Assembly (NCBI RefSeq): GCF_030645145.1
Contig: NZ_JAUSMI010000132.1
Span: forward strand, 1-33,822
Source: Microcella sp.
GTDB lineage: Bacteria; Actinomycetota; Actinomycetes; Actinomycetales; Microbacteriaceae
Length of the DNA stretch: 33,822 nucleotides
Direction of reading: 5' to 3'
The notes beneath the pieces are model-generated. The model was not told where the DNA came from. It saw only the letters and a list, made by a program, of their open reading frames with translations, and did no database searches. The first letter of the stretch is position 1. The number at the start of each line of letters is the position of its first letter. Of the stretch, positions 5,409-30,876 are shown one piece after another. A program made the position numbers and the translations under genes.

Positions 5409-6188
5409 CTACTGGTCGGTGAGTTCCTTGGGCATTGAGTAGCCAAGGGCGTCGCTGACCCGAGTCCCGGCGTGGACAACGTGCTCAGCGACCTCGTGTA
5501 GCCGAGCCACCGGCATCTCGAACTCGAGAGCCGAGACGCTCACGCCGCCGATCCCCACGCCGGACGCGTCGAAGACTGGCGCACCAACGCAACGGAGATT
5601 TAGCTCGTTCTCGCCGTTGTCAATGGCCCACCCGCGCTGACGAGTTGATCGGAGGTCGTCCAGCAGCGCCGCGACGCTGGTGTGCGTGGACTCGGTGACC
5701 TGCCGCATCCCGGCGCGCTTCATAATTTCCGCCACGCGCGCATCCGGGAGCGTCGCCAGGAAGGACTTCCCGATCGACGTCGAATGCAACGGCACCATGC
5801 CGCCCACGCGAGAGCGCATGCGGTACGAACCGAGGCCGTCGAGCTTCGCCGCGTACATCACGCTGTCGCCCCTCACGAGCCCGAAGTGCACGGTCATCCC
5901 CGTCGCCCGCCGTAGCTCCTCCAGGTGCGGGCGAGCGACACGGCCGATCTCACCGTCCTCGCGCAGCAGTCCCGTGATGGCATGCAGCCGTCTACCGGGC
6001 ACGTAGCGCTTGTCCTCGTCCTGGAAGACCCAGCCGGTCGCGACGAGTTCGCTGAGAACCCGATGCGCCGTGCTGAAGGAGAGGTCCGTCGCTTTCGCGA
6101 GGTCCGAGAGCCGATCGGCCGCCAGGACGGCCTCCAGCATCGACAGCCCCTTGGCCAGCGCCGATCGCGGCGTGCTCGCCTCCGTCAT
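5409..6188 (-). CDS. IclR family transcriptional regulator (candidate KdgR-type regulator of the uronate island)
   Basis: SALAKGLSMLEAVLAADRLSDLAKATDLSFSTAHRVLSELVATGWVFQDEDKRYVPGRRLHAI (winged HTH) plus GMVPLHSTSIGKSFLATL and GWAIDNGENELNLRCVGAPVFD (IclR effector domain). Confidence 0.93.
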   Translation of the reverse strand: MTEASTPRSALAKGLSMLEAVLAADRLSDLAKATDLSFSTAHRVLSELVATGWVFQDEDKRYVPGRRLHAITGLLREDGEIGRVARPHLEELRRATGMTVHFGLVRGDSVMYAAKLDGLGSYRMRSRVGGMVPLHSTSIGKSFLATLPDARVAEIMKRAGMRQVTESTHTSVAALLDDLRSTRQRGWAIDNGENELNLRCVGAPVFDASGVGIGGVSVSALEFEMPVARLHEVAEHVVHAGTRVSDALGYSMPKELTDQ

Positions 6189-6204: not shown

Positions 6205-7041
6205 TCAGCGGATATCGGTCACCCGGACATGGTCCATGTCATCGTACGCGGCATTCTCTCCCGCGGTAGCCCAGACGAAGCTGTATGGTCCGGTTCCCGC
6301 GCCGAAGTGCACGGACCAGCTCGGGGATACGACAAGCTGCCGATCTCCGAGCACGACATGGCGCGTTTCGTCCGGGCGACCCATCACGTGGAATACGCGG
6401 TCCTCCTGCGCGAGGTCGAAGTAGAGGTAGCACTCGGTGCGACGATCGTGGGTATGCGGGGGCATCGTGTTCCAGGTGCTTCCCGCGTGAACTGTTGTGA
6501 AGCCGAAGGCGATGTTGGCACTCGGCGTGCGCCCCTCGATGATGCACTGGTGGAGGGTGCGATGGTTGGATGCCTTGGGCGACCCGATCTCGACGATGTT
6601 CATGTCGTCCTGCGTGATGAGCGTGTGCGGAAACGCCTTGTGTGCGACGGCGGTGAACACGTAGAAGGCCGCCGGGTCGGCGGGGTCGTCGGAACGGAAC
6701 GAGACCCCGTCCGCCCCGCGACCGAGGTACACCGCCTCGCCGTGCACGACCGGAAACTCGGTCCCGTCCGCGACGACGACCCCCGACGCGCCGACGTTCA
6801 GAATGCCGGCCTCTCTCCGCTGCAAGACGTGCTTCGCTCGGACCTCGTCCGGGTTCGGCAAAGCGATCGCCTCCGCGATCGGAACGATCCCGAAGGCGAG
6901 GATGCGGTCATGATGGAGGTACACGCCCCGCGCCCCACCCAGCGCGAAGAGATCGTCCACGACGAACGCGGCGCGTAGTTGTGCGGTGTCCATCGCGGCC
7001 ACTGCGGTGGGGCTGTGGGCGTATCGGGTGTCGACCGTCAT
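6205..7041 (-). CDS. kduI: 5-dehydro-4-deoxy-D-glucuronate isomerase (copy 1)
   Basis: WNTMPPHTHDRRTECYLYFDL...VFHVMGRPDETRHVVLGDRQLVVSPSWSVHFGAGTGPYSFVWATAGEN; KduI signature with metal-binding HxH...E and later His. Start placed at the internal Met (MTVDTRYAHSP). Confidence 0.93.
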   Translation of the reverse strand: MTVDTRYAHSPTAVAAMDTAQLRAAFVVDDLFALGGARGVYLHHDRILAFGIVPIAEAIALPNPDEVRAKHVLQRREAGILNVGASGVVVADGTEFPVVHGEAVYLGRGADGVSFRSDDPADPAAFYVFTAVAHKAFPHTLITQDDMNIVEIGSPKASNHRTLHQCIIEGRTPSANIAFGFTTVHAGSTWNTMPPHTHDRRTECYLYFDLAQEDRVFHVMGRPDETRHVVLGDRQLVVSPSWSVHFGAGTGPYSFVWATAGENAAYDDMDHVRVTDIR

Positions 7042-7100
7042 CGATTCACTCTCTGCTAGGTGATGCGTTGCGTCTTTCATCGGATCTGGCATCCGCCGTG

Positions 7101-8078
7101 TCAGCGTGTGACAGGGTCAGCGGCAGCGTCGCGGAAGCGCTCGATATCAGCACGGCGCGGACTCCCCTCCCAGTCGCCATAGCTCATGCACAAGAGTGCC
7201 CCGCAGGCATTCGCTCGTTGAAGTCGCTCTGAGACGGACAGTCCGTCGAGCATTGCGCTCAGGTAGCCGGCGACGAAGGCATCCCCCGCGCCGACGGTGT
7301 CGACGGCCTCGACAATGAATCCCGGCGCCTCGATCACAGAATCGTCGATGAAGACCGTTGCACCTTCGGCGCCGCGCTTGAGGATCACTTCACGGCGTCC
7401 TTCCCGCGCGATCGCCCGCGCGGCTTCCGACGCGTTGAGACCGGGTCGGACGAGCTGCATTTCGTCCGCGCCGCCGAACACGAAATCAGCACGGTCGGCA
7501 AGCCATCGAAGAATCGAACCTGCTACGTCGGTATCGGCGAGTGCCGAGCGGTAATTGATGTCGAAGCTGATACGTACGCCGGCGGCACGCGCGCGGTCGA
7601 CCGCCTCCGACACGCAGGCGCGTGCAGATTCCGACACCAAAGCGGTGATCCCTGACACGTGCAGCACCTCGGCGTCTTCGATCCACCCGGACGGGATGTC
7701 GGCCGGGGACAGCCTGGAGCCCGCTGAGCCGGAGCGATAGTAGAGGACGCTCGTCGAGGCACTGGTCGAACGTTCCTTCACCATTAATCCGGTCGGAGCA
7801 GCGGAATCGACGACGCAACGGACGTCGAGAGCCTCGGCTCGCAATTCACGAGCGACGCGCTCGCCGAGAGCGTCGTCGCCTACACACCCGAGCCATCCGG
7901 CGTCGATACCGAGGCGTTGCAGACCGATGGCGACGTTGCTTTCGGCGCCGCCGATACCTAGGGCGAGCTCGGTGACATGGCGCAAGGAGCCGATCTCTCG
8001 GGTGCGGACGAGCGCCATGGTTTCTCCGAGCGTGACGACCCGATTGCTCGGTCTTTCGGAGCCGAGTGACGCTCTCAC
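7101..8078 (-). CDS. kdgK: PfkB-family sugar kinase, probable 2-dehydro-3-deoxygluconate kinase
   Basis: VVTLGETMALVRT...GGAESNVAIGLQRLGIDAGWLGCVGDDALGERV and VDTVGAGDAFVAGYLSAML (PfkB signature 2); KDG specificity inferred from neighbours. Confidence 0.88.
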   Translation of the reverse strand: MRASLGSERPSNRVVTLGETMALVRTREIGSLRHVTELALGIGGAESNVAIGLQRLGIDAGWLGCVGDDALGERVARELRAEALDVRCVVDSAAPTGLMVKERSTSASTSVLYYRSGSAGSRLSPADIPSGWIEDAEVLHVSGITALVSESARACVSEAVDRARAAGVRISFDINYRSALADTDVAGSILRWLADRADFVFGGADEMQLVRPGLNASEAARAIAREGRREVILKRGAEGATVFIDDSVIEAPGFIVEAVDTVGAGDAFVAGYLSAMLDGLSVSERLQRANACGALLCMSYGDWEGSPRRADIERFRDAAADPVTR

Positions 8079-8719
8079 CGCGCGCCCCCGTTTGCGCAGA
8101 GCGCGACGAACGCTGCTGCTCGTTCACGCAGCGCGCGAAGGTTCCCACCGCGCATCGCATCGCCTAGAAGCGGACCGCCAACGCTGACCGCTGCAGCTCC
8201 GGCCGCCAGCCAGTCGGCCGCCATGTCGTGATTCACGCCACCGGAAGGGATGACGTCGATTCCAGGAAACGGTCCACGGAGATCATTGACGTAATTCGCG
8301 CTCACCTGGCCCGCAGGGAAGACCTTGACCGCCGACGCTCCGGCGCGCCACGAGGCGAAGAGTTCGGTCGGAGTGAACCCCCCGGGCACCACCGGGATGC
8401 CGGCCGCCACGGATAGGGCGACGACACGCGCATCCGTTATCGGCGTCACGATGTAGTGAGCGCCGGCGCCGATGGCGGCATTGAGTTCATCCTCGTCGGT
8501 GACTGTTCCGACGCCGATGTCGGCGGCATCGCCGAATCGCGCCACGATCTCCGGCAATCTCTTGATGGTTCCCGGCGTGGTCATGGTCAACTCGACGCTG
8601 CGGATCCCAGCGTCGACGAGAGCGTCGAGCACGCGCGAGTAGTCTCCACTGTCACTGGCACGCAGCACCACGATCAGCCGGGTGGCCGCCGTGCGCGGCG
8701 GAATGGGCAGCCGATTCAC
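8075..8719 (-). CDS. eda: bifunctional 4-hydroxy-2-oxoglutarate / KDPG aldolase
   Basis: From a GTG at 8719: VNRLPIPPRTAATRLIVVLRA...GIRSVELTMTTPG...IGVGTVTDEDELNAAIGAGAHYIVTPITD...VKVFPAGQVSANYVNDLRGPFPGIDVIPSGGV; Eda Schiff-base lysine region (VKVFPA). Confidence 0.9.
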   Translation of the reverse strand: MNRLPIPPRTAATRLIVVLRASDSGDYSRVLDALVDAGIRSVELTMTTPGTIKRLPEIVARFGDAADIGVGTVTDEDELNAAIGAGAHYIVTPITDARVVALSVAAGIPVVPGGFTPTELFASWRAGASAVKVFPAGQVSANYVNDLRGPFPGIDVIPSGGVNHDMAADWLAAGAAAVSVGGPLLGDAMRGGNLRALRERAAAFVALCANGGAR

Positions 8720-8733
8720 CGTGTCACCATTGA

Positions 8734-8838
8734 TCAACGGTGCGATCCTGGAGCGGAGGCATGAGCATTCATGACCGAGCGGGATCGGCCGTCGAGGGCG
8801 ACCGTGAGGCGGAAGGCGGCTGGCGCCTGAGCAATCAT
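8734..8838 (-). CDS. Possible 34-aa small ORF upstream of eda (unverified)
   Basis: GTGAAAGGAAGCACAGCC-ATG reads MIAQAPAAFRLTVALDGRSRSVMNAHASAPGSHR*; good Shine-Dalgarno-like AAAGGAAG in the otherwise unassigned gap between the GH105 stop and the eda start. No homology evidence. Confidence 0.3.
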   Translation of the reverse strand: MIAQAPAAFRLTVALDGRSRSVMNAHASAPGSHR

Positions 8839-8900
8839 GGCTGTGCTTCCTTTCACTTAGTTCGATCGTTGGTGCGTCTTCACGCGGGTCGTGACGGGGG

Positions 8901-9980
8901 TCAACCCGGGTGGGTCTCGCGCCACGCGGCGAGCGCCTCCATGGCGAGTCCCTGGCCCCACGGCTGCGGGCGGTCATCGCGGATCACGGAGTAGCCGAAC
9001 GGGATCAACTGCAGAATAGTTCCGGCGCTGACGCGAGTCAGAAGCCCGGACTCGACGTACGCCATCGCTCCGAGGACAGCACGCTCTCCCGCGTGGAAGA
9101 GTTCGGCGTGCATGTCGACGCCGAGGCGTTCCGGGCCCAGGATGCGCGAGGTCCTCAGTAGCGCCGCGCCCAGCCCCGCGGCTGCGGAGGTTTCGATGAT
9201 CCCGCGCACTTCAGGCGCCGAATCCACGAGGACATCCCACACGCCGTGCTCCGGTTGGCGCTCCGCGATCGCCTGCAGAAGGGCGACGAGCCTCTCCTCC
9301 ACCCGGGCGTCTCCCGTGGCGGCGAGGATGTCCGCGCCCGCCAGAGCGAACCAGGCATTCGCGCGACCCCAGTGGCAGTCGATCCGCGTGCCGGCATGGG
9401 TGCCGTGCACCAACAGATGGCTCTGCGGGTGCTGGAGCAGGTCTGCATGGGCCAGCCACTGAGACAGCGCTTCATCGACGAGTTCGGGACGGTCGAGCGC
9501 GGAGCCCGCACGAAGGAGGACCTGACCGGCCATATACACGGTGTCGGCCCATACGCCTCCGGGCCAGTGCTCGAGTGCACCGTTTGGTGCACGAGTCGCC
9601 TCCGGTGCCGACTGGTACCAGCGGAGGCAGGCATCGAGGAGCCGCCGCTGCTGCGGACTGGGGTTCCTGCGATGCATCTCGGCGAGCGCCGCCGCGGGGG
9701 CGAGATTGTTGACGTGCTCGAGAACCGGGGGCGTTCGGACGTAGGGCTCGTAAAATGCCGTCACCCACGCGGGGGCAGGTTCCCCCCGGGCGTCGGCGAG
9801 CCGCAGGGACGCGAGGAGGCAGACCCCCTCTCCCCAGAACCATCGCGTCATGCCCTGCGTAGCGGTAGCCGCCTGCAAGGCCTCCTCAAGCGGCCGCTGG
9901 CGCTCGGCGAATGCGCCGCTCGACAACGGAGGACGGGCAGGCGTCGCCAGCTCCGACGACGACAGATCTTCACCGGCCAT
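8901..9980 (-). CDS. Glycoside hydrolase family 105/88-type unsaturated uronyl hydrolase
   Basis: GMTRWFWGEGVCLLASLRLAD...VWADTVYMAGQVLLRAG...HAGTRIDCHWGRANAWFALAGADIL; resembles YteR/RhiN (conserved Asp in WADTVYM, WGRANAW motif). No signal peptide apparent. Confidence 0.82.
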   Translation of the reverse strand: MAGEDLSSSELATPARPPLSSGAFAERQRPLEEALQAATATQGMTRWFWGEGVCLLASLRLADARGEPAPAWVTAFYEPYVRTPPVLEHVNNLAPAAALAEMHRRNPSPQQRRLLDACLRWYQSAPEATRAPNGALEHWPGGVWADTVYMAGQVLLRAGSALDRPELVDEALSQWLAHADLLQHPQSHLLVHGTHAGTRIDCHWGRANAWFALAGADILAATGDARVEERLVALLQAIAERQPEHGVWDVLVDSAPEVRGIIETSAAAGLGAALLRTSRILGPERLGVDMHAELFHAGERAVLGAMAYVESGLLTRVSAGTILQLIPFGYSVIRDDRPQPWGQGLAMEALAAWRETHPG

Positions 9981-12741
9981 GCTCCGCAGCCACCTCCTTG
10001 GCGGTCGTGATCGCCCCTGCTACGTCGAGACGAAGCGTCTCTCCCGCCCACTCCACTACCGCGTCCGGCTGACCGAATCTCAGGGTCACAGCGGGGTTAT
10101 GGATGTGCGGCTCGTCTTCGATGCGGCCGTCCTCGAAACCGACCGGACGGCCGCCGACGAGGAAGGGGCCATCGAAGCTGAGCTCCAGGGAGGGGTGGTC
10201 GCCGCTCTCCCAGCGCACACCGGGATCGTCATCGCTCAGCGGACGCCAGTCGGTCTCGCTCGCGGCGAGCCGCTCAACCCAGTCGGCGAAATCACCGTCG
10301 ACCGCATGCCGGCCCACCACTGCGATCCACGCGGCGCCCCCCGCGCGCGGAATCCACTCCTGCTGCGCGGTGTCGCCGGCTGCCACCGCCCGCACGCCGC
10401 CCTCCGCGGCGACGGCGACGAAGCCGCGCCCGCGCCGCCCGAACAGCCAGTCGCCGCGCTGGGCGATCTCGTCGAACTGCGCGGGGGGGAACCAGAGATG
10501 GGTGTTGCGCCGAGGGTCGGTCGTCGTGAACCTCTGGACGTGGAGGAGCGCATTCCGGTGCTGGTGCACGCGTCCCAGCACCCGGTGCCCCGCCCATGCG
10601 TTGGGCCGCGCGGCCGACCCGGTGTCGGCATTGGCCGGGTGGGTGACGAACACCTGCAGCTCGCGCCCCAGCGTGGCGCCCCAGATGTGCTCCTGAAGCC
10701 CCGGCAGACCCGAGCGATAGTCCTGAACGCTCGCGAGCATCACCTCGGGCGTGCGGTGGATGCGGAGGTCTGACCGGTATGGACGCGCGAGGAGATCGCG
10801 CTCGAACGCGAGTGCACCGCGATACACCTGGCGGCCGTCCCACTCTTCCGGCTCCGTCCGCGCGAGTTCTCGCACCACGGCCGGGATCTCGTACCTCTTT
10901 GCGAGGGCGAGCGCCGTGACCGGCAGGACGGCGTCGTTGAGAGTGCCGACTCCGCCGATCAGCCGCAGCAGTGGCGACGTCTCTTCGTAGCGGCTGCTGC
11001 GGAGCGTATGCACGTAGGAGCGGCCGTGCGCCGCACCGTGTATGCCCCGCCAGGAATTGCTCGTGAGGCTGACGAGGGTCTTGTCGAGAAGCGTCGTCGC
11101 CGACAGCGTCAAGCGCTGGTCCTGGGCGAGTTCGATGAGCGCGACGAGGGCGTAGGAGTCGATCGCCAGATAGGCGTTCGAATCAAACTCGCTGAATCCG
11201 CCCTCGAGCTTCCGGGCGATCCATGCGGCCGCCCTCGCGCGCCCCTCGGCAGCATGCTCTCTTCCGGTGCGACCATCCACCGAGAATCGCGTCTCGGCGA
11301 ACGCCTCGCCGGCGAGGGCCTGGGCGACGTGCCACACGAACTGGTGGTTCTCGGTGAAGTAGCACATGGCGTCCAGCCCCGGCTGGGTGATCCAGTACTT
11401 CATCCCGGTGAGTTCGGCGCGTACCTCCTCGCGGAGATCCTCATCCCACTGCTCGGCGGGAATCCAGTGCCAGGCTAAGAGGAGCGCGATGATCTCGAAG
11501 TCAGCGCAGTCGCCACGGGTCGCCACGCGGTGACGCGCGGAGGTGAGGTCGGCGGCCGACACCATCGTGGAGGGGTCGAGGGCGAAACGGGCGAGGACTC
11601 CCGCGACACCCGCCTCCCGCACATCGTCGCCGTCCGCACCGACGTGTGCGAGCACGTCCCGTCGCCACGACTCCGGACTTCCTTCGCTCGTCAGTCGGCT
11701 GTCCTGCGGAAGCGACGCGATGCGCAGGCGCACCGTCTGCGGGCAACGATCGTCCGCAACGCCCACCTCCACGATCGACTCACCGGTCGACAGCATCGAG
11801 GCTCCGGCCGACCGCGCGACGTCTGCTCCCTCGTCCTCCTCCTCGACCGCGCCGAGGAGCGAATACTCAGCCCGCCCATGCGCATCGGCCTGTACGTGCT
11901 GCCAGGCGCCGTCGCCGACCCGTACGCGCAGGCGCATGCCCGCCGGAGCCGTAAGGATCGCCGTCGCTCCCTCCTGCGCCCAGCTCGGCGAGCCGACACG
12001 CGACAGAACGCCGTCGGCGAGACGTGCGGCCGTCTCGTCCGCCCCGCGCGAGGGGATGACGACTCGGACGGGAAGGCCGATCACGCGCAACCGCGCCACG
12101 TGCCGCACCTCCCGGAATGCGACCTGCCAGGTGGCGAGGTGGATCGTCGTGGTCCGGGAGTGCAGCCGCAGTCGGACGCTGTGCACTTCGGGCTCCATGT
12201 ACGACACCCTGTCGCCGCGAAGGACCAGCTCGCCGTCCACCCAGAGTGCGAAGGGCCCAGTCGTGTGCAACTCGAAGGTGCGCCACTCCGCCTGGTCCGC
12301 TTCGAGCACCGTGCTCGCGACGGACGCGCGGTACTCAGGGGTGAAGCAGAAGGCCGACCAGTCGAGGTAGCCGTCCCATCCGGTGTGCACGCGCCGCCAG
12401 AAGCCCTCGTGCCGCATGCCGAACGCACTCCAGGCGATAGGGTCGCCTTCGGCGATCGTCGGCAGCGGCTGCTCGACGTCGAGCGCATGAGCCCGGAGCA
12501 ACCTCTCCTTCAACGGTCCGGCATCCGGGCCCTGAGTCAGCACCCACCGGCCCTCCTCCGCGCTCGGCGCGCCGTCCGAGAAACGGCGTCTCTCACCCCA
12601 CGGCTCACCGTCCGCGGGCAGGAACTGCTCGAGGTCGTCGCACGGCAGCGCCCAGGCAGGGGAGACGAGCCAATCCCGGACGGTGCCGTCGGCGTCGGTG
12701 AGGTGCACAGTGCGCCCTGAGGGTGCGGTGAGTTGCGACAT
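9970..12741 (-). CDS. Large uncharacterised protein (923 aa), candidate polysaccharide/oligosaccharide lyase or related (alpha/alpha)-toroid enzyme
   Basis: MSQLTAPSGRTVHLTDADGTVRDWLVSPAW...; N-terminal beta-rich region (FALWVDGELVLRGDRV...), central helical region with MCYFTENHQFVWHVAQALAGEAF, GGFSEFDSNAYLAIDSYALVALIELA, HGRSYVHTLRSSRYEE, and a C-terminal beta-rich region. 11-nt overlap with the GH105 gene. No signal peptide seen. Function inferred from context only. Confidence 0.6.
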   Translation of the reverse strand: MSQLTAPSGRTVHLTDADGTVRDWLVSPAWALPCDDLEQFLPADGEPWGERRRFSDGAPSAEEGRWVLTQGPDAGPLKERLLRAHALDVEQPLPTIAEGDPIAWSAFGMRHEGFWRRVHTGWDGYLDWSAFCFTPEYRASVASTVLEADQAEWRTFELHTTGPFALWVDGELVLRGDRVSYMEPEVHSVRLRLHSRTTTIHLATWQVAFREVRHVARLRVIGLPVRVVIPSRGADETAARLADGVLSRVGSPSWAQEGATAILTAPAGMRLRVRVGDGAWQHVQADAHGRAEYSLLGAVEEEDEGADVARSAGASMLSTGESIVEVGVADDRCPQTVRLRIASLPQDSRLTSEGSPESWRRDVLAHVGADGDDVREAGVAGVLARFALDPSTMVSAADLTSARHRVATRGDCADFEIIALLLAWHWIPAEQWDEDLREEVRAELTGMKYWITQPGLDAMCYFTENHQFVWHVAQALAGEAFAETRFSVDGRTGREHAAEGRARAAAWIARKLEGGFSEFDSNAYLAIDSYALVALIELAQDQRLTLSATTLLDKTLVSLTSNSWRGIHGAAHGRSYVHTLRSSRYEETSPLLRLIGGVGTLNDAVLPVTALALAKRYEIPAVVRELARTEPEEWDGRQVYRGALAFERDLLARPYRSDLRIHRTPEVMLASVQDYRSGLPGLQEHIWGATLGRELQVFVTHPANADTGSAARPNAWAGHRVLGRVHQHRNALLHVQRFTTTDPRRNTHLWFPPAQFDEIAQRGDWLFGRRGRGFVAVAAEGGVRAVAAGDTAQQEWIPRAGGAAWIAVVGRHAVDGDFADWVERLAASETDWRPLSDDDPGVRWESGDHPSLELSFDGPFLVGGRPVGFEDGRIEDEPHIHNPAVTLRFGQPDAVVEWAGETLRLDVAGAITTAKEVAAEHGR

Positions 12742-12778: not shown

Positions 12779-13660
12779 CTATTTGATGCCGGTGTTCGCG
12801 ATCCCCGTGGCGATCTGCCTCTGGAAGATGAGGAAGATGATCAGAACGGGGATCGTGGAAACCATGCCCATCGCGAGGATGAGGTTGAACGGCACGGTCA
12901 GCTCGGCGTTGAAGCGCGCCAGCGCCACCGGCAGCGTGTAGACCGATTCGCTCTGGGCAATGACGAGCGGCCAGAGGAAATCACTCCATCGCCACATCAC
13001 GGAGAAAATGGCGACGACGGCCAGCGCCGGCTTGCAGAGGGGTAGCACGATCTGCACGAAGGTCCGGAACTCGCCCGAGCCGTCCACCCGCGCCGCCTCG
13101 ATCAGCTCGTCCGGGATGCTGAGCATGTATTGCCGCAGCAGGAAAACGCCCGTGGGTGTCGCCGCGGCCGGGATGATCAGGCCCCAGAGGGTGTCGACGA
13201 GTCCGAGCGATGCCACTACCTGATAGACGGGGATGAGGATCACCTGGAGCGGAATCATGATCGTGGCCAGGGTGAGGAGGAACAGAAAGGTCTTGCCCCG
13301 GAAGTTGTACTTCGCCAGCGCATACGCTGCCATAGCGTTGATCGCCAGCGTGAGGGCCGTGGCCGCCATCGTGACGATGGCACTGTTGGTCAGATACTGC
13401 ACGAAGTTGAACCGGCTGAGCGCCTCGATGTAGTTGTCGGGAGCCCACGATTCCGGAAGGAAGGAGGGTGGCCGTTGCGCCAGTTCCGTCGGGGACTTGA
13501 ACGACCCGAGGAACATCCACATCAACGGCACGAGGCACGCTAGCGCGCCGCCGACGAGGACGACGACGCGAAGGACATCCGAGACCCGCACAGACCCGCC
13601 GCCGATAGATGTCCACGTGCGTGGGGGCCGGACCACCGTGATCGCCCGCGTCTCGCTCAT
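12779..13660 (-). CDS. Carbohydrate ABC transporter permease (MalG/CUT1 type)
   Basis: From ATG at 13660: MSETRAITVVRPPRTW...; PDELIEAARVDGSGEFRTFVQIVLPLCKPALAVVAIFSVMWRWSDFLWPLVI (EAA motif). Confidence 0.93.
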   Translation of the reverse strand: MSETRAITVVRPPRTWTSIGGGSVRVSDVLRVVVLVGGALACLVPLMWMFLGSFKSPTELAQRPPSFLPESWAPDNYIEALSRFNFVQYLTNSAIVTMAATALTLAINAMAAYALAKYNFRGKTFLFLLTLATIMIPLQVILIPVYQVVASLGLVDTLWGLIIPAAATPTGVFLLRQYMLSIPDELIEAARVDGSGEFRTFVQIVLPLCKPALAVVAIFSVMWRWSDFLWPLVIAQSESVYTLPVALARFNAELTVPFNLILAMGMVSTIPVLIIFLIFQRQIATGIANTGIK

Positions 13661-14580
13661 ACCGCTTCCCTCCTTCGACTGATGAGCCAATTGATGATGG
13701 TCAGGGTGAATACGGCGATGAACAGCAGTACGCCGCCGGCGGTGGCCACGCCGTACCGGATCGGCGACTGGAAGCCGTTCTCGTAGATGTACTGCACCAT
13801 CAGGGTGGTCGCTCCGACGGGGCCGCCGCCGGTGAGCGTCCAGATGAAGTCGAACGACTGGAAGCCGTGGATCGTGCCCAGCACGACGACGACGACGATG
13901 CTCGGCTGAAGCAGAGGGACGGTGATCACGCGGAACTGCTGCCACCAGTTCGCACCGTCCATCCGGGCCGCCTCGTACAGGGCGGGGTCGATCGACTGGA
14001 GACCCGCGAGCAGGATGAGCATGTAGAAGCCCACCTGCATCCACATCCCCACGAGGATGATCGCTACCATCGCCCAGGTGCCGTTGACCAGCCATGGGAC
14101 GGGGGGAGTGCCGAGCCAGCCGAGGCCGGTGTTCACGAGCCCGTTCTGCCTTTCTAACATCCAGTTCCAGATCAGGCCCACGACGACGGGCGAGACGAGA
14201 ACCGGGATGAAGAACACCGCGCGGAAGAAGGTCTTCCCCCGCCTCTGGGCGTTCACCAACGCTGCGATCACCAGAGCGATCAGAGTGCTGAGTACGACGA
14301 AGCCCACGGCGAACACCGCGGTGTTGCGGGCGACGTTCCAGAACTCAACGTCTGTCAGGATTCTTCCGTAGTTCTCCAGGCCGACCCAGCGGAAGGTGCG
14401 TCCGTTGTTCGACTCGTACAACGACATGTTGAAGCCGTTGAATGCCGGGTAGATGGTGAACACGGCGAAGATCGCCATGTTCGGGACCAGGAAGAGGTAG
14501 GGCGCGATCTTGATGCCCCACCCACCGCCCGTCCAGCGGCTGCGCCGCGGTCGGGCGGTGGTCGTCGAGGCCGTGGTCAC
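13657..14580 (-). CDS. Carbohydrate ABC transporter permease (MalF/CUT1 type)
   Basis: IKIAPYLFLVPNMAIFAVFTIYPAFNGFNMSLYE...LYEAARMDGANWWQQFRVITVPLLQPSIVVVVVLGTIHGFQSFDFIWTLTGGGP (EAA motif). Confidence 0.93.
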   Translation of the reverse strand: MTTASTTTARPRRSRWTGGGWGIKIAPYLFLVPNMAIFAVFTIYPAFNGFNMSLYESNNGRTFRWVGLENYGRILTDVEFWNVARNTAVFAVGFVVLSTLIALVIAALVNAQRRGKTFFRAVFFIPVLVSPVVVGLIWNWMLERQNGLVNTGLGWLGTPPVPWLVNGTWAMVAIILVGMWMQVGFYMLILLAGLQSIDPALYEAARMDGANWWQQFRVITVPLLQPSIVVVVVLGTIHGFQSFDFIWTLTGGGPVGATTLMVQYIYENGFQSPIRYGVATAGGVLLFIAVFTLTIINWLISRRREAV

Positions 14581-15875
14581 GAGCCAAGTTCCGCCACGAG
14601 GTCGTCGATTTGTCGGCTCAGCGTGGCCAGAGCGCTCGGCAGATCCGTCGCACCGCTCACCACGAGCGACACTGCGTCGACCAGGTTGGTCGCCGATGCG
14701 GAGAAGGCCGGGTTCGCGTTGGATGCGAAGCCCGCCTCGGGCGTGACCCTCAGGTCGCCGAGGAATACATCCATCGCGGCCTGCGTCGTCTCGTCCGCGT
14801 AGGTCACGCCGCTCTCCGAGAGATCGGTGCGCGTCGGCAGCGCTCCGGCGATCGTGACGAACGTCTCCTGGTTGTCGGCCTGGTTCATGAACCGGATGAA
14901 CTCAGCGGCGAGTGCAGGGTTCTCGGACTGCTCGAACGCGGCCATGAACTTTCCGCCCGGGAAGCCGCCGCACTCCTCTGCGCACGGATTCGGGGCCACG
15001 GCCCACTCGAACGCCGCGTTCTGGGCGAACTGCGCGACCTGCCAGTTGCCCGACAGGTAGATCGGCGTATCGCCCGCGAGGAAGATCTCGTTGGCGCCCT
15101 CGTAGCGGGAGCCCGAGCCGAGCCAGAAGTCTGCGGGCATGTCGTCGTTCGCCATCATGTCGATGAGCGGCTGCAGCGCTTCCTCGGCCTTCTCGATGTC
15201 TAGGGCGTTGCCGTCGCTATCGAGCAGGTAGGTGCCGTACTGGCTGAGGATGGTCGAGAGCCGGTGGCCGGACTTGTCCATGGCGAACGCGTACGGCGTG
15301 CCCGTCGCGTCCTTCACCTCTTTAGCGGCGGCGAGCATCTCCTCCCACGTCCACTCCTCGGGGATGGGCACGCCGGCCTGCTCGAAGAGGTTCACGTTGA
15401 TGAACGGCCCATTCAACGTGAGGTCGCTCGGCACCGCGATCATCTCGTCGTTCTCGTTGAAGACAGCCTGCACCGGGCCCGCGAGGAACTCATCCGCGTA
15501 GTCGTCCCCAAGGTACGGGTCGAGCACGAGCAGGTCCGAGCGGAAATCCGTCAGGCTCGTCAGGCGCGCTACATCAGGTGCGTTGCCTCCCGAGAGTCGG
15601 TTGAGCGTGGACGTGACGAGGTCGGCGTACGGCAGGATCTCGAGTTCGACGGTGACGTCGTACATGTCCTCGAACCCGCGGATGAGCTGGCGCGTGGCCT
15701 CCTCGTCGGGCCCGTCGGTGAAATACATGTAGGTGAGAGCTTCTCCAGCGAAGTCCTCCGGGTTCGCAGTCTGGACACCCTGGGGGGAATCGTCCTCGAG
15801 TTGGCCGGGCGCGCATCCGGCGATGAGAAGCGCGGATGCGCCGATTGCAAGCGCCGCGATGCCGCGCTTTCGCAT
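14577..15875 (-). CDS. ABC transporter extracellular sugar-binding lipoprotein
   Basis: From ATG at 15875: MRKRGIAALAIGASALLIAGCAPGQLEDD (lipobox LIAGC); then SBP family 1-like LTYMYFTDGPDEEATRQLIRGFEDMYDVTVELEILPYADLVTSTLNRL. Confidence 0.93.
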   Translation of the reverse strand: MRKRGIAALAIGASALLIAGCAPGQLEDDSPQGVQTANPEDFAGEALTYMYFTDGPDEEATRQLIRGFEDMYDVTVELEILPYADLVTSTLNRLSGGNAPDVARLTSLTDFRSDLLVLDPYLGDDYADEFLAGPVQAVFNENDEMIAVPSDLTLNGPFINVNLFEQAGVPIPEEWTWEEMLAAAKEVKDATGTPYAFAMDKSGHRLSTILSQYGTYLLDSDGNALDIEKAEEALQPLIDMMANDDMPADFWLGSGSRYEGANEIFLAGDTPIYLSGNWQVAQFAQNAAFEWAVAPNPCAEECGGFPGGKFMAAFEQSENPALAAEFIRFMNQADNQETFVTIAGALPTRTDLSESGVTYADETTQAAMDVFLGDLRVTPEAGFASNANPAFSASATNLVDAVSLVVSGATDLPSALATLSRQIDDLVAELGS

Positions 15876-15960
15876 GATTGCCACTAGATCCTCCTTGATT
15901 CGGTGGGCCAGCGACGACGGGAACTCGTCGATGGTAACGAAAAGCATTCTGGCCTATGAT

Positions 15961-16014: not shown

Positions 16015-16833
16015 ATGGCCTGGACAGAGCTGTGGAGCACTCATCCCGACGATCTCGCCAACCTGAAGGGGCAAAGTCTGCGCACCCGGTTCGTCCTTCC
16101 CCGTCTCTTCGAGCGTGAAGCGTTCACGTTCGCGTATACGCACGATGACCGGCTGCTCGTCGGCGGGATCCGCCTCGGAGGCGTGGAGGTGGCTCTCGAG
16201 GCTCCCCCGGCACTGAACACGCCGCAACTGCTGGATCGACGCGAATTGGCCCTTGTCGTCCTCGACGGAAGCGTGCGTGTCTCCAGCTCGGCGGGCGACT
16301 TCGTGCTCGGGCGCCACGATGTGGTTTATCTGCCGATGGGCACTCGCGACATCCGCGTCCAGGGGGCAGGAGTCCTCTACGTCGTGTCCGCTCCCGCACA
16401 CGCGGGTGGAAGGGCTGCTCTGGCGACGCGCGACAGCGTGGAGACCGTGCGCCTCGGATCCGCTGAAGGCGCGAACGACCGCACAATACGCAAGTACATT
16501 CACGCCGGCGGCATCGCCTCGAATCAGCTCGTTCTCGGCATCACGACCCTGGAGCCGGGATCGGTGTGGAACACGATGCCCGCGCACGTCCACAGCCGTC
16601 GCACGGAGGTGTACCTGTACGACGGGCTGGGCGACAACCTTCTTGTCCACCTCATGGGCCGCCCCGACGAAACTCGGCACCTCGTCCTGCACGAACGGGA
16701 CGCGATCGTGTCGCCGCCCTGGTCGATCCACTCCGGCTCGGCGACGGGCGCCTACAGCTTCGTCTGGGCGATGGCCGGCGAGAACATCGACTACGGTGAC
16801 GTCGTCTCTGTGAACCCCGAGGATCTGCGATGA
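16015..16833 (+). CDS. kduI: 5-dehydro-4-deoxy-D-glucuronate isomerase paralog (copy 2)
   Basis: SVWNTMPAHVHSRRTEVYLYDGLGDNLLVHLMGRPDETRHLVLHERDAIVSPPWSIHSGSATGAYSFVWAMAGEN; metal-ligand pattern conserved. RBS AAAAGGAG upstream of ATG. Confidence 0.92.
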   Translation: MAWTELWSTHPDDLANLKGQSLRTRFVLPRLFEREAFTFAYTHDDRLLVGGIRLGGVEVALEAPPALNTPQLLDRRELALVVLDGSVRVSSSAGDFVLGRHDVVYLPMGTRDIRVQGAGVLYVVSAPAHAGGRAALATRDSVETVRLGSAEGANDRTIRKYIHAGGIASNQLVLGITTLEPGSVWNTMPAHVHSRRTEVYLYDGLGDNLLVHLMGRPDETRHLVLHERDAIVSPPWSIHSGSATGAYSFVWAMAGENIDYGDVVSVNPEDLR

Positions 16834-17609
16834 GCGCGCCGCAACCAGACGGGCGCCTCGACCTCACCGCACCGCTGCGCGGGCGTCGTGCCCTCGTCAC
16901 CGGAGCGGGGGCCGGCATCGGGCTAGCCTGCGCTCGCTCGCTCGCCGAACGAGGGGCGGAGCTCGTGCTGCTCGGGCGATCGTCCGTCGAGCGCGGCGCC
17001 GACGAACTGCGTCGCGCGGGCCATACCGTCGCCACGGTGACCTGCGACCTGTCCGATGTCGACGAGGCATACCGCGTGGGAGCGGAGCTCGAGGAGGGCG
17101 AGCCCATCGACATCCTCGTCAACAACGCCGGGATCATCCACCGCGAGCCGGCCGTCCGCCACGGACGGGAAGACTGGCAGCGCGTTATCGATGTCAACCT
17201 GAATTCCGTGTGGGCGCTGGCGCAGACCGTGGGCTCGGGCATGGTGTCCCGGGGCTACGGCCGCATCGTGACGATCGCGTCGCTGCTCTCCTTTCAGGGC
17301 GGCATCAACGTCGTATCGTACGCGACGAGCAAACACGCGGTCGTTGGCATGACCAAGACCCTTGCGAACGAATGGGCTCGTCACGGCGTAACCGTCAACT
17401 GCGTTGCGCCTGGCTACGTCCGCACCGAGAACACCGCGGCTCTGCGCGCGGACGAGGATCGCGAGCGGGAGATCCGTTCCCGCATCCCGGCCGGGCGGTG
17501 GGCGGAGCCCAGTGATATCGGTGGTGCTGTCGCTTTTCTCAGCGGTCCGGATGCGGCCTATGTCAACGGCCATGTGCTCGTCGTGGACGGAGGCTGGCTG
17601 GCCCGCTAG
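16830..17609 (+). CDS. kduD: SDR oxidoreductase, probable 2-dehydro-3-deoxy-D-gluconate 5-dehydrogenase
   Basis: RRALVTGAGAGIGLACARSLAERGAELVLLGR, NNAGIIHREPA, YATSKHAVVGMTKTLANEWARHGVTVNCVAPGYVRTENTAALRAD; ATGA overlap with the upstream kduI. Confidence 0.9.
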   Translation: MSAPQPDGRLDLTAPLRGRRALVTGAGAGIGLACARSLAERGAELVLLGRSSVERGADELRRAGHTVATVTCDLSDVDEAYRVGAELEEGEPIDILVNNAGIIHREPAVRHGREDWQRVIDVNLNSVWALAQTVGSGMVSRGYGRIVTIASLLSFQGGINVVSYATSKHAVVGMTKTLANEWARHGVTVNCVAPGYVRTENTAALRADEDREREIRSRIPAGRWAEPSDIGGAVAFLSGPDAAYVNGHVLVVDGGWLAR

Positions 17610-24045: not shown

Positions 24046-25560
24046 ATGAAACTCGAGCTTCGTGGCATCACCAAGCGCTTCGGCGCCCTGGTCGCCAACG
24101 ACCACATCGACCTCGTGGTCGAGCCCGGCGAGATCCACTGCCTGCTCGGCGAGAACGGTGCGGGAAAGTCCACGCTCATGAACGTCCTGTACGGCCTCTA
24201 CCAGGCCGACGAGGGCCAGATCCTCCTGGACGACGTCGTCCAGAGCTACTCGGGCCCGGGCGACGCGATGAACGCCGGCATCGGCATGGTGCATCAGCAC
24301 TTCATGCTCATCCCCGTCTTCACCGTCGCGGAGAACGTCATGCTCGGCAACGAGTCGACCAAGCCCGGCGGCCTCCTCGATCTCGAGGCGGCGCGCGCCA
24401 AGGTCGTCGAGATCTCGGCGCGGTTCGGCTTCGACATCGATCCGGATGCGCGCATCGAGGACCTCCCCGTCGGCGTGCAGCAGCGGGTCGAGATCATCAA
24501 GGCGCTCTCGCGCAACGCCAACGTCCTCGTGTTCGACGAGCCGACGGCCGTGCTCACGCCTCAGGAGACCGACGAGCTCATGGCGATCATGCGCCAGCTC
24601 CGCGACGAGGGCACCTCGATCGTGTTCATCACCCACAAGCTCCGCGAGGTCCGCGAGGTCGCCGACCGCATCACCGTCATCCGTCTCGGCAAGGTCGTCG
24701 GCGAGGCCTCGCCCACGGCGACCAACGCCGAGCTCGCCTCCCTCATGGTCGGCCGTGCGGTCGACCTCACCGTCGACAAGGACCCGGCGACGCCGGGCGA
24801 CGACGCGCTCGTCGTGCGCGACCTGACGGTCATCGATCACGTCGGCCAGCGACTGGTCGACGGCGTCTCCTTCACCCTCCGCCGCGGCGAGATCCTCGCC
24901 ATCGCCGGGGTCCAGGGCAACGGCCAGACCGAGCTCACCGAGGCGATCATGGGCCTGCAGCACCGCGTCCACGGCTCGATCTCGCTCGACGGCGAGGAGC
25001 TCATCGGGCGGTCCACGCGCGGCGTGCTTGACGCGGGCGTCGGCTTCGTGCCCGAGGACCGCAAGGAGGACGGACTCGTCGCCGAGATGACGATCGCCGA
25101 GAACCTCATGCTCGACCGATCGACGGGCGAGCCCTTCGTCAAGCGCGGCACTCTGCAGCTCGCCGACCTCGCGCGCTTCGCGGAGGAGAAGGTGCGGGAG
25201 TTCGACGTGCGCGCCCAGGGCATCGCCACGCGCGTCGGCCGGCTGTCCGGCGGCAACCAGCAGAAGGTCGTCCTGGCTCGCGAGCTCAGTCGCGACCTGC
25301 GTCTGTTCATCGCGGCGCAGCCGACGCGCGGGCTCGACGTCGGGTCGATCGAGTTCGTGCACAAGCGCATCGTCGAGACGCGCGATTCGGGAGTCCCCGT
25401 CATCGTGGTCTCGACCGAGCTCGACGAGGTCGTCGCGCTCGCCGACCGCATCGCGGTCATGTACCGCGGGCGCATCGTGGGCATCGTGCCCGGCGACACG
25501 CCCCGCGACGTCCTCGGACTGATGATGGCCGGCGAGACGCCGGCGGAGGTGGCCGCATGA
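24046..25560 (+). CDS. ABC transporter ATP-binding protein, duplicated ABC cassette (nucleoside uptake, YufO/RbsA-like)
   Basis: MKLELRGITKRFGALVANDHIDLVVEPGEIHCLLGENGAGKSTLMNVLYGLY (Walker A), VLVFDEPTAVLTPQE (Walker B), second-half LSGGNQQKVVLARELSRD. Confidence 0.95.
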   Translation: MKLELRGITKRFGALVANDHIDLVVEPGEIHCLLGENGAGKSTLMNVLYGLYQADEGQILLDDVVQSYSGPGDAMNAGIGMVHQHFMLIPVFTVAENVMLGNESTKPGGLLDLEAARAKVVEISARFGFDIDPDARIEDLPVGVQQRVEIIKALSRNANVLVFDEPTAVLTPQETDELMAIMRQLRDEGTSIVFITHKLREVREVADRITVIRLGKVVGEASPTATNAELASLMVGRAVDLTVDKDPATPGDDALVVRDLTVIDHVGQRLVDGVSFTLRRGEILAIAGVQGNGQTELTEAIMGLQHRVHGSISLDGEELIGRSTRGVLDAGVGFVPEDRKEDGLVAEMTIAENLMLDRSTGEPFVKRGTLQLADLARFAEEKVREFDVRAQGIATRVGRLSGGNQQKVVLARELSRDLRLFIAAQPTRGLDVGSIEFVHKRIVETRDSGVPVIVVSTELDEVVALADRIAVMYRGRIVGIVPGDTPRDVLGLMMAGETPAEVAA

Positions 25561-26825
25561 GCACGACGACCAGCCCCGCGACTCCGGCGAGCGCTCCCGA
25601 GACGCCCGCCGCCCCGCGGTCCAACCAGATCATGAAGGAGATCCTCGGCGGCTCCGCCGCGATCTCCGTCCTCGCGGTCGTGCTCGCGCTCATCGCGGGC
25701 GGCATCCTCATCATCCTCACCGACGAGCGGGTCGCCGAGACCTCCGGCTACTTCTTCTCGCGGCCGACCGACACCCTCGGCGCGGCGTGGCAGGCCGTGA
25801 GCGGCGCGTACACCGCCCTCTTCCGCGGCTCGGTCTTCAACTACGAGACCGATCGCGGATTCGCGATCGCCATCCGCCCGCTCCTCGAGACCCTCACGTT
25901 CGCGACGCCGCTCATCGCCGCGGGCCTCGGCGTCGCGCTCGCGTTCCGCGTCGGCCTGTTCAACATCGGCGGTCGCGGGCAGATGCTCATCGCCGCCGCC
26001 GCCGCCGGATACGTCGGCGCGTACGTGCCGCTGCCGCCGGTCATCCACCTCGTCGTCGCCCTCGTGGTCGGCATCATCGGCGGCGCGCTCTGGGGCGGCA
26101 TCGTCGGTCTCCTCAAGGCGCGCACCGGCGCGCACGAAGTGATCGTGACGATCATGCTCAACTACATCGCGTTCTACCTCGTGTCGTTCCTGCTGCGCAC
26201 CCCGGGCGCGCTGCAGGCACCCGGCCAGAACAACCCGAAGTCGGGCCCCATGCTCGAGTCGGCGCAGTACCCGAGCCTCCTGGGGCCGCAGTACAACATC
26301 GACATCGGGTTCATCCTCGTCATCGTCGCGACGATCTACGTCTGGTACCTGCTCAACCGCTCGGCGATGGGCTTCCAGTTCCGCGCCGTCGGCGAGAACC
26401 CGCACGCCGCGCAGGTCGCCGGCATCAACGTCAAGAGCGTCTACGTCAAGGTCATGCTCATCGCCGGCGCGCTCGTCGGCCTCGCGGGCGTGCAGCAGGT
26501 GCTCGGCAACTTCACCGGCGGCTTCGCCGCCGGGCTCGACGCGGGAATCGGCTTCGACGCGATCACGGTCGCGCTCCTCGGCCGCTCGAAGCCGTGGGGC
26601 GTGTTCTTCGCCGGCATCCTCTTCGGTGCGCTCAAGGCGGGCTCGTTCACGATGCAGAGCGCCGAGGGCATCCCGGTCGACATCGTCCTCGTCGTGCAGA
26701 GCTTCATCGTGCTCTTCATCGCCGCGCCCCCGCTCGTGCGGGCCATCTTCCGACTGCCGACTCCGGACGGCAGCTTCCAGTGGCGCAAGCCCGCGATCGC
26801 CCGCAAGGCGGAGGTGTCGAAGTGA
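25557..26825 (+). CDS. ABC transporter permease (nucleoside-type, BPD_transp_2)
   Basis: LLETLTFATPLIAAGLGVALAFRVGLFNIGGRGQMLIAAAAAGYVG...; ATGA overlap with the ATPase gene; multi-helix. Confidence 0.93.
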   Translation: MSTTTSPATPASAPETPAAPRSNQIMKEILGGSAAISVLAVVLALIAGGILIILTDERVAETSGYFFSRPTDTLGAAWQAVSGAYTALFRGSVFNYETDRGFAIAIRPLLETLTFATPLIAAGLGVALAFRVGLFNIGGRGQMLIAAAAAGYVGAYVPLPPVIHLVVALVVGIIGGALWGGIVGLLKARTGAHEVIVTIMLNYIAFYLVSFLLRTPGALQAPGQNNPKSGPMLESAQYPSLLGPQYNIDIGFILVIVATIYVWYLLNRSAMGFQFRAVGENPHAAQVAGINVKSVYVKVMLIAGALVGLAGVQQVLGNFTGGFAAGLDAGIGFDAITVALLGRSKPWGVFFAGILFGALKAGSFTMQSAEGIPVDIVLVVQSFIVLFIAAPPLVRAIFRLPTPDGSFQWRKPAIARKAEVSK

Positions 26826-28132
26826 CCGCTGCACCCGCGACCACCGCTCCGGCGGCGACGACCCCCGGTGGAGCATCCCCCGTCGCCGTTCGCAGCTGGA
26901 AGGCGCCCATCGCCTTCGCGATCTTCACCGTCATCGCGATCCTGCTGTTCTTCGTGGTCGGGCGCCCCGACCTCGAGGGCGACAACCCGATCACGACCTA
27001 CCGGCTCTCCGAGGGGCGCGACGCCATCCAGCTGCCGCCGCTCACGCTCGGGCTCGCCGAGACCACGATCGTCGTCGTGCTGCTCATGGTCGCCGCGACC
27101 GTCGGCGCCGTGCTCCTGTCGCGGGCCGCGATCCGCGTCCCGCTCTGGCTCACGACGGTGTTCGCCGTGCTCTTCCTGGTCGGCTTCCTGACCTGGGCCG
27201 CCGCGGGCGCGACCGTGCCGCTCATCGGTCTCCTCGCCGGAGCACTGACCGTCAGCACGCCGCTCATCTTCGGCTCGCTCGGCGGCGTGATCTCCGAGCG
27301 CGTGGGCGTCGTCAACATCGCGATCGAGGGCCAGCTGCTCGGCGGCGCGTTCATGGCCGCGATGCTCGGCAGCCTCACCGGGAGCCCCTACGTGGGCCTC
27401 CTCGGCGCGATGGTCGCGGGCGCGCTCGTATCGTTCGTCCTCGCCGCCTTCGCGATCAGGTACTTCGTCGACCAGGTCATCGTGGGCGTCGTGCTCAACG
27501 TCCTCGTCCTCGGCCTCACGAGCTTCCTGTACTCGACGGTCATGGTACCGAACGCCGAGACGTTCAACTCGCCCGAGAAGTTCGAGCGCATCGCCATCCC
27601 GCTGCTGAGCGAGATCCCCGTCCTCGGGCCCATCCTGTTCCGTCAGACGGTCATCGTCTACCTGATGTACCTCGCGATCTTCCTCGTGTGGTTCGGTCTG
27701 TTCAAGACGCGCTGGGGCCTGCGCCTCCGTGCGGTCGGCGAGCACCCCACCGCGGCCGACACCGTCGGCATCAACGTGCGCGCGACGCGGTTCTGGAACG
27801 TCCTGCTCGCCGGTGCGATCGTCGGCGGAGGCGGCGCCTTCTTCACGCTCGCCGCGGTCGGCTCGTTCGGCAAGGACATGACCAACGGCGCGGGCTTCAT
27901 CGCGCTCGCCGCGGTCATCTTCGGCCGGTGGGACCCGATCCGCGCGACGCTCGCCGCCCTGCTGTTCGGCTTTGCCACGAACCTGCAGTCGACGTTGTCG
28001 ATCGTGGGCTCGCCCGTGCCGAGCGAGTTCATGCTCATGCTTCCGTACGTCGTGACGATCGTGGCCGTCGCCGGCTTCGTCGGCCTCTCGCGGCCGCCCG
28101 CGGCGTCCGGCAAGCCGTACCTGAAGGCCTGA
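26822..28132 (+). CDS. ABC transporter permease (nucleoside-type, second)
   Basis: GTG start VTAAPATTAPAATTPGGASPVAV...; STPLIFGSLGGVISERVGVVNIAIEGQLLGGAFMAAM...; overlaps the preceding gene by 4 nt. Confidence 0.92.
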   Translation: MTAAPATTAPAATTPGGASPVAVRSWKAPIAFAIFTVIAILLFFVVGRPDLEGDNPITTYRLSEGRDAIQLPPLTLGLAETTIVVVLLMVAATVGAVLLSRAAIRVPLWLTTVFAVLFLVGFLTWAAAGATVPLIGLLAGALTVSTPLIFGSLGGVISERVGVVNIAIEGQLLGGAFMAAMLGSLTGSPYVGLLGAMVAGALVSFVLAAFAIRYFVDQVIVGVVLNVLVLGLTSFLYSTVMVPNAETFNSPEKFERIAIPLLSEIPVLGPILFRQTVIVYLMYLAIFLVWFGLFKTRWGLRLRAVGEHPTAADTVGINVRATRFWNVLLAGAIVGGGGAFFTLAAVGSFGKDMTNGAGFIALAAVIFGRWDPIRATLAALLFGFATNLQSTLSIVGSPVPSEFMLMLPYVVTIVAVAGFVGLSRPPAASGKPYLKA

Positions 28133-28151
28133 GCAGGGAGAGAGCCAGCAC

Positions 28152-28577
28152 ATGACCGGATCGACCGCGCCCGCGGCCGACGCCATCGACTGGGACGCGC
28201 TCCGCGCCGTCGCGCTCGAGGCGATGGCCAAGGCCTACGTCCCGTACTCCAAGTTCCCCGTCGGCGTCGCCGCGATCGTCGACGACGGCCGGGTGATCTC
28301 CGGCTGCAACGTCGAGAACGCCTCCTACGGCCTCACGCTGTGCGCCGAGTGCACGCTCGTCTCGACGCTCCACATGACCGGTGGCGGCAGGCTCGTCGCA
28401 TTCACGTGCGTCGACGGGAACGGCGGAGCCCTCATGCCCTGCGGCCGCTGCCGCCAGCTGCTGTTCGAGCACTCGGCCGAGGGCATGCTCCTCGAGACCG
28501 TCTCGGGCATCAGGACCATCGACGAGGTGCTGCCCGACGCCTTCGGGCCGCGCACCCTGGAGGAGTACCGCTCGTGA
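28152..28577 (+). CDS. cdd: cytidine deaminase
   Basis: AYVPYSKFPVGVAAIVDDGRVISGCNVENASYGLTLCAECTLVS...MPCGRCRQLLFEH; zinc motifs CAE and PCGRCRQ. Confidence 0.96.
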   Translation: MTGSTAPAADAIDWDALRAVALEAMAKAYVPYSKFPVGVAAIVDDGRVISGCNVENASYGLTLCAECTLVSTLHMTGGGRLVAFTCVDGNGGALMPCGRCRQLLFEHSAEGMLLETVSGIRTIDEVLPDAFGPRTLEEYRS

Positions 28578-30813: not shown

Positions 30814-30876
30814 GAGCCGAGCCTAGAGCTCACCGAGCGGGGTCACGACACGGTAACGAACCGGTAGGTTTGAGGC

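Follow-up and report, generated by a model that had tools for sequence, protein, structure and literature searches.

A probable cytosolic oligosaccharide lyase of an unnamed family encoded in an unsaturated-uronate gene cluster of Microcella

Operons of the polysaccharide lyase (PL) family 22 oligogalacturonate lyase (Ogl, with the Tog importer, KduI and KduD) use a cytosolic lyase to feed KduI, KduD, KdgK and Eda. The PL22 enzyme is a beta-propeller. The window analysed here is the whole of a 33,822-nucleotide contig of Microcella sp. (NZ_JAUSMI010000132.1), and contains a cluster that is like the PL22 operons by context, with a lyase proposed to act in the cytosol on oligouronides that have been imported. 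It differs from them in also holding a glycoside hydrolase (GH) of the GH88/105 type, and there is no PL22 gene in the genome. The cluster includes the gene of a 923-amino acid protein, U923. On the basis of its sequence, family, invariant residues, predicted fold and gene context, from which we infer the reaction, residue roles and substrate, U923 is probably a cytosolic oligosaccharide lyase of an unnamed family within the superfamily formed by an (alpha/alpha)-toroid and an antiparallel beta-sandwich (the fold of PL8, 12, 15, 17, 21, 33, 35 and 39). A lyase function of the family is well supported by inference.

9970–12741, minus strand: U923, candidate cytosolic oligosaccharide lyase of an unnamed family (model, Foldseek and alignment)

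The open reading frame (ORF) has an ATG start with the purine-rich, Shine–Dalgarno-like AAGAAGGAAAG upstream, and overlaps the GH88/105 ORF (8901–9980) by 11 nt. It is not a chance ORF, since 24 homologues with 43–79% identity, nearly all full length, emerged when 84,980 species genomes were scanned with a pattern; all are Actinomycetota by title. In the AlphaFold model the chain is mostly strands up to about residue 343, forming N-terminal beta domains (about 1–345) of a GH2/PA14-like jelly-roll type. The helices of residues 356–628 then form a predicted toroid, followed by the strands of residues 634–906 as a predicted beta-sandwich. No signal-peptide-like stretch is seen in U923 or its close family; the substrate-binding protein (SBP) of the window has one. 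A first-pass annotation, made from the sequence of the window, had given the coordinates and the overlap exactly and had likewise seen no obvious signal peptide. Its division of the protein into a beta-rich N-terminus, helical middle and beta-rich C-terminus agrees with the model, and the three motifs that it quoted all lie where the family is most strongly conserved.

AlphaFold gives a predicted template modelling score (pTM) of 0.82 for the whole of U923; a core model (residues 345–923) has a pTM of 0.91 and a predicted local distance difference test (pLDDT) of 87.5. In a Foldseek comparison of the core with the PDB, every hit in ranks 1–18 is a polysaccharide lyase (E = 2e-5 to 2e-2), with PL8, 12, 15, 17, 33 and 39 represented. 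The matches include heparinase III (4fnv, 5jmf and 4mmh), PL8 lyases (1rwa, 2wda, 1j0m and 8g0o), Atu3025 (3afl), Dp0100 (6jp4), Alg17c (4nei), a PL33 enzyme (8r73) and a chondroitinase (9o3q). U923 is thus predicted by the model to contain an (alpha/alpha) toroid followed by an antiparallel beta-sandwich, and the check by AlphaFold and Foldseek that the first-pass annotation had suggested matches the lyase fold. The whole model returned mostly GH2-type enzymes, with chondroitinase ABC second. The GH2-like N-terminal region dominates that search, and of the two models the core is the useful one. A GH2/GH78 glycoside hydrolase was rejected as an assignment; it was matched by the full-length model only, is absent among the core matches listed, and there is no Pfam match. 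A viral fold search found nothing.

The sequence family of U923 is new; its fold, as predicted, and probably its reaction class are known ones. Neither the single sequence nor the family profiles (A1, A2, A3 and A6), the widest included, have a match in Pfam, NCBIfam or the PDB, and no solved PL structure was matched by phmmer or hmmsearch even with the wide profile. These searches, among them the Pfam check that had been proposed, bear out the earlier view that no named family could be assigned. A confident match to a non-lyase family, which the same annotation had named as contrary evidence, did not turn up. Comparisons by hhalign with the PL8 and heparinase II/III profiles are insignificant; since a control comparison of PL8 with heparinase II/III is insignificant too, the profile–profile approach is uninformative. 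No description of the family or cluster was found in the open-licence literature.

An alignment of 22 diverse members, from bacteria and one archaeon, has 21 invariant columns, including E464-N465-H466, E518, S521, Y524, G573-R574, Y576, Q683 and H748, with G515 conserved in at least 90%. N465 and Y524 are 59 residues apart. At the level of sequence they provide the layout of an Asn neutraliser and a Tyr acid/base at the spacing known for toroid lyases, where the Asn/Tyr pairs of PL8, 12, 15, 17, 35 and 39 are 53–59 apart (PMC12088678, Table 4). Fetched heparinase II/III-type proteins have invariant N331-H332, G376, E380 and Y385, with 54 residues from Asn to Tyr, and the hhalign comparison with heparinase II/III, though insignificant, is still in the same register (ENH aligned with NNH, and GFSEFDSNAY with GVNREQASDYH). 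On shuffling the invariant letters among positions the pattern NH..G..E..Y, which was chosen post hoc, arose in 2.5e-5 of trials.

The toroid lyases of PL12, 15, 17, 21, 35 and 39 have a sandwich His located 130–166 residues after the Tyr. H685 (Tyr +161) of U923 is His in 21/25 core members and otherwise Tyr or Gln, with Thr or Asn in some distant ones; it was dropped as a sandwich base as the wider alignment shows no conservation. H748 is invariant, at Tyr +224, and so lies beyond the expected spacing of about 130–166. In the PL15 enzyme VBAly15A the sandwich His is reported not to be the base; proton abstraction can fall to the NH-type His, and the Tyr is able to fill both roles (PMC11921355). 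Because of this precedent and the variability of the sandwich His, N465, H466 and Y524 are proposed from the alignment as candidate active-site residues, and H748, Q683, R574 and Y576 as putative binding or supporting residues.

The families PL12, 15, 17, 21 and 39 are like U923 in combining a toroid with a beta-sandwich (predicted in U923), and in an NH motif followed by G..E..Y, with the Tyr 53–59 residues after the Asn. Several of their enzymes act on oligosaccharides, as proposed for U923, and PL15 exoheparinases also carry a separate N-terminal domain (PMC7904915). U923 differs in having no detectable sequence relationship with these families and in its GH2-like N-terminal region, and unlike them its importer-operon branch looks cytosolic. 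An assignment to the heparinase II/III type (PF07940; PL12, 15, 17 and 21) was rejected, there being no Pfam match to the C-terminal profile and no HxHxD in U923. PL8 (chondroitin AC, hyaluronate and xanthan lyases) also has a toroid and a beta-sandwich, and N183 and Y242 of chondroitin AC lyase have the same spacing of 59 (PMC12088678). A conserved GR pair follows the Tyr in both, at +54 in PL8 and +50 in U923. However, the PL8 catalytic His lies 9 residues before the Tyr, where U923 has a Gly (515) and no His in 505–523; with no Pfam match and an insignificant hhalign comparison, PL8 was set aside. The L-rhamnose-alpha-1,4-D-glucuronate lyases of PL27 and PL42 would also leave an unsaturated glucuronic acid (GlcA)–sugar suited to GH105. 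PL27, like U923, combines a beta-sandwich and an (alpha/alpha)6 barrel, but in the opposite order (PMC8377490); in U923 the helical domain comes before the large C-terminal sandwich, and there is no PDB sequence match. PL42 is unlike U923 in having a propeller-type fold.

The cluster around U923 encodes a complete pathway for 4,5-unsaturated uronates, the KduI and KduD pair at 16015–17609 (plus strand) completing it. Its other genes, assigned with hidden Markov models (HMM), are:

5409–6188, minus strand: IclR-family regulator, KdgR-like
6205–7092, minus strand: KduI copy 1, 5-dehydro-4-deoxy-D-glucuronate isomerase (346 bits, cut-off 250)
7101–8078, minus strand: PfkB-family kinase of the 2-keto-3-deoxygluconate kinase (KdgK) type
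8075–8977, minus strand: Eda-type KDPG/KHG aldolase (domain at residues 98–271)
8901–9980, minus strand: GH88/GH105 unsaturated uronyl hydrolase
12779–14095, minus strand: sugar ABC permease 2
13657–14580, minus strand: sugar ABC permease 1, UgpA/MalF type
14577–15947, minus strand: sugar ABC SBP with a signal-like N-terminus
16015–16833, plus strand: KduI copy 2, divergent from the importer operon (291 bits, cut-off 250)
16830–17609, plus strand: KduD-like 2-dehydro-3-deoxy-D-gluconate 5-dehydrogenase (best family kduD, 304 bits, below the cut-off of 339)

The true start of the aldolase is probably downstream of 8977, given the position of its domain, and the permease 2 ORF as listed begins too early; the length of its homologues, about 290 amino acids, suggests a start near 13640. 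The GH88/105 gene is the only copy in the whole Microcella genome. The HMM searches confirm the neighbours listed by the first-pass annotation (eda, kdgK, kduI, GH105/88 and the importer), to which the second KduI and KduD are additional. That annotation had also seen no other lyase-like gene in the island, and PL8, heparinase II/III, PL22 and PL1-type lyases were undetected genome-wide in searches with PF08124, PF07940, PF14583 and PF00544 only. No secreted depolymerase is seen within the window. The two KduI paralogues match the same equivalog model, and similar pairs occur in the genomes L002, L003, L004 and L005.

The order SBP–permease–permease–U923–GH105 is found in close relatives. A sugar ABC importer adjoins U923 in 21 of the 24 loci (one of the remaining three ends at a contig edge), and GH88/105 follows it in 21/24. 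Among 25 carrier genomes GH88/105 is present in 22, as the sole copy in 19 of these, and KduI in 20. At one locus (L007:8684–9847) an MFS-like transporter, identified by eye, replaces the ABC importer ahead of U923 and GH105.

More distant relatives (21–32% identity) are carried on plasmids, where a translated search found 199 records with homologues, mostly in Rhizobium and also in Sinorhizobium, Shinella, Aminobacter, Pseudosulfitobacter, Haladaptatus and Subdoligranulum. The annotated genes, among them those of rhizobia, marine bacteria and archaea, are all labelled ‘hypothetical protein’. In the annotated bacterial cases the homologue has GH88, KduI/KduD and an importer, either ABC or TRAP, as neighbours. 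In Shinella the order is GH88–KduI–U923 homologue–SBP–permeases–UgpC–KduD, with a nearly identical order in Aminobacter, and in Pseudosulfitobacter a TRAP importer adjoins KduD, KduI, GH88 and the homologue. The haloarchaeal homologue has sugar oxidoreductase genes around it and a heparinase II/III-type gene at most 10 kb away; no GH88 is seen there. The pairing of the family with different importer classes indicates an enzyme that acts on imported sugar, between uptake and GH88.

In Rhizobium etli CFN 42, whose homologue is WP_086005050.1, an SBP gene is followed by U923 homologue–GH88–GH28–UgpC–permease–permease. By eye the GH28 has no signal-like N-terminus, and looks cytosolic. Its presence points to galacturonate-containing, pectic substrates in rhizobia, which is the best lead on substrate. 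In R. phaseoli, root exudates induce a gene for a GH28 polygalacturonase (PMC8581550), which may differ from the GH28 of the R. etli cluster. Rhamnose–glucuronate, as in the gum arabic cap, was rejected as a weak candidate substrate because rhamnose isomerase is rare in the carriers (undetected in 21 of 26 U923-carrying genomes).

In the mechanism that we propose, the ABC importer would bring in an oligosaccharide with a 4-O-substituted uronate, which U923 would cut by beta-elimination to give an unsaturated uronosyl product. N465, with H466, would neutralise the carboxylate, H466 and/or Y524 would take the C5 proton, and Y524 would protonate the leaving group. GH88/105 would then release the unsaturated uronate, to be converted by KduI, KduD, KdgK and Eda to pyruvate and glyceraldehyde-3-phosphate. 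The first-pass annotation had put U923 forward as the best lyase candidate of the operon, with which predicted fold, Asn-His...Tyr layout and context agree. It had also suggested action on imported oligosaccharides, and the context across phyla and importer types points in the same way to a cytosolic step before GH88/105 and KduI.

Several observations weigh against a lyase. The core shares about 10% identity with the matched lyase structures, with low TM-scores (0.2–0.4), so that the link is one of fold only, and there is no sequence-level link to the PL families. The sandwich His is not conserved. The genomes L009, L010 and L017 carry the importer and U923 with neither GH88 nor KduI, which suggests a different downstream route or product. 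Moreover, GH88 and the Kdu enzymes need just an unsaturated product, and this could be made outside the cell. In that case the imported oligosaccharides would already have been unsaturated by extracellular lyases of other organisms, and U923 would be another cytosolic enzyme (a glycosidase, esterase or epimerase) trimming them before or after GH88/105. The absence of a secreted depolymerase from the window fits this explanation, as does the dominance of GH2-type enzymes and rhamnosidases in the full-length Foldseek search. We consider it unlikely, because the core alone matches lyases with no GH2 enzyme among the matches listed, the invariant residues have the Asn-His...Tyr layout of lyases, and distant secreted-looking homologues retain the core while lacking the N-terminal domain.

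The variable residue at the expected place of the sandwich His, and the relatives in genomes without GH88 or KduI, would also suit a catalytically altered toroid/sandwich protein serving as a uronate-oligosaccharide carrier or a sensor/regulator without cleavage. Such a role is very improbable given that the invariant columns, shared by bacteria and an archaeon, are clustered in catalytic-looking motifs typical of an enzyme, and that a sandwich His base can be dispensable in PL15 (PMC11921355). The remaining alternative concerns the name and not the lyase function. The same predicted fold and a similar active-site layout might mean that U923 belongs, as a divergent sequence, to a CAZy family already defined, such as PL8, PL12, PL15, PL17, PL27, PL33 or PL35. 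There is rather little chance of this, since neither phmmer nor hmmsearch matched U923 to a solved PL structure, even with the wide profile, and it fits no model of Pfam or NCBIfam; in addition the PL8 catalytic His has no counterpart (G515), the heparinase II/III HxHxD is absent, and PL27 places its beta-sandwich before the barrel (PMC8377490).

If U923 is a lyase, the missing lyase of uronate-import operons is named in soil, rhizosphere and freshwater bacteria, and ‘hypothetical protein’ could be replaced, among plasmid records alone, in about 200. The enzyme family, for which no characterised member was found, would also put to the test whether the sandwich His is essential to toroid lyases. 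The balance tips modestly towards a broader view, of a widespread new PL family (Actinomycetota, Rhizobiaceae, Roseobacteraceae, Clostridia and haloarchaea) whose members would cleave imported uronate oligosaccharides, pectic or other, inside the cell by means of Asn-His and Tyr, with no conserved sandwich His, while secreted relatives would make up a second, extracellular branch.

The occurrence of U923 is sporadic, since it or a distant relative is present in 6/397 genomes of a phylum sample, and just one of 59 near relatives of the source genome (from another family of the same order) has even a distant homologue. The N-terminal domain is missing from the distant relatives, several of which begin with lipoprotein- or Tat-like signals, as judged by eye. 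Such core-only homologues with lipoprotein- or Tat-like N-termini (L038–L044) come from other actinobacterial lineages and lie outside uronate operons, and are a probable secreted branch; the neighbours of the distant core-only actinobacterial relatives have no match to the U923 operon genes. One contig titled Bifidobacterium breve (L016) carries a U923 cassette closely like that of the freshwater-type actinobacterium L013, and its metagenome-assembled genome label is probably wrong. Elsewhere in the window, positions 24046–32016 hold an unrelated nucleoside-salvage-like cluster with a nucleoside/B6-type ABC transporter, the uridine-preferring hydrolase UriH and adenosine deaminase.

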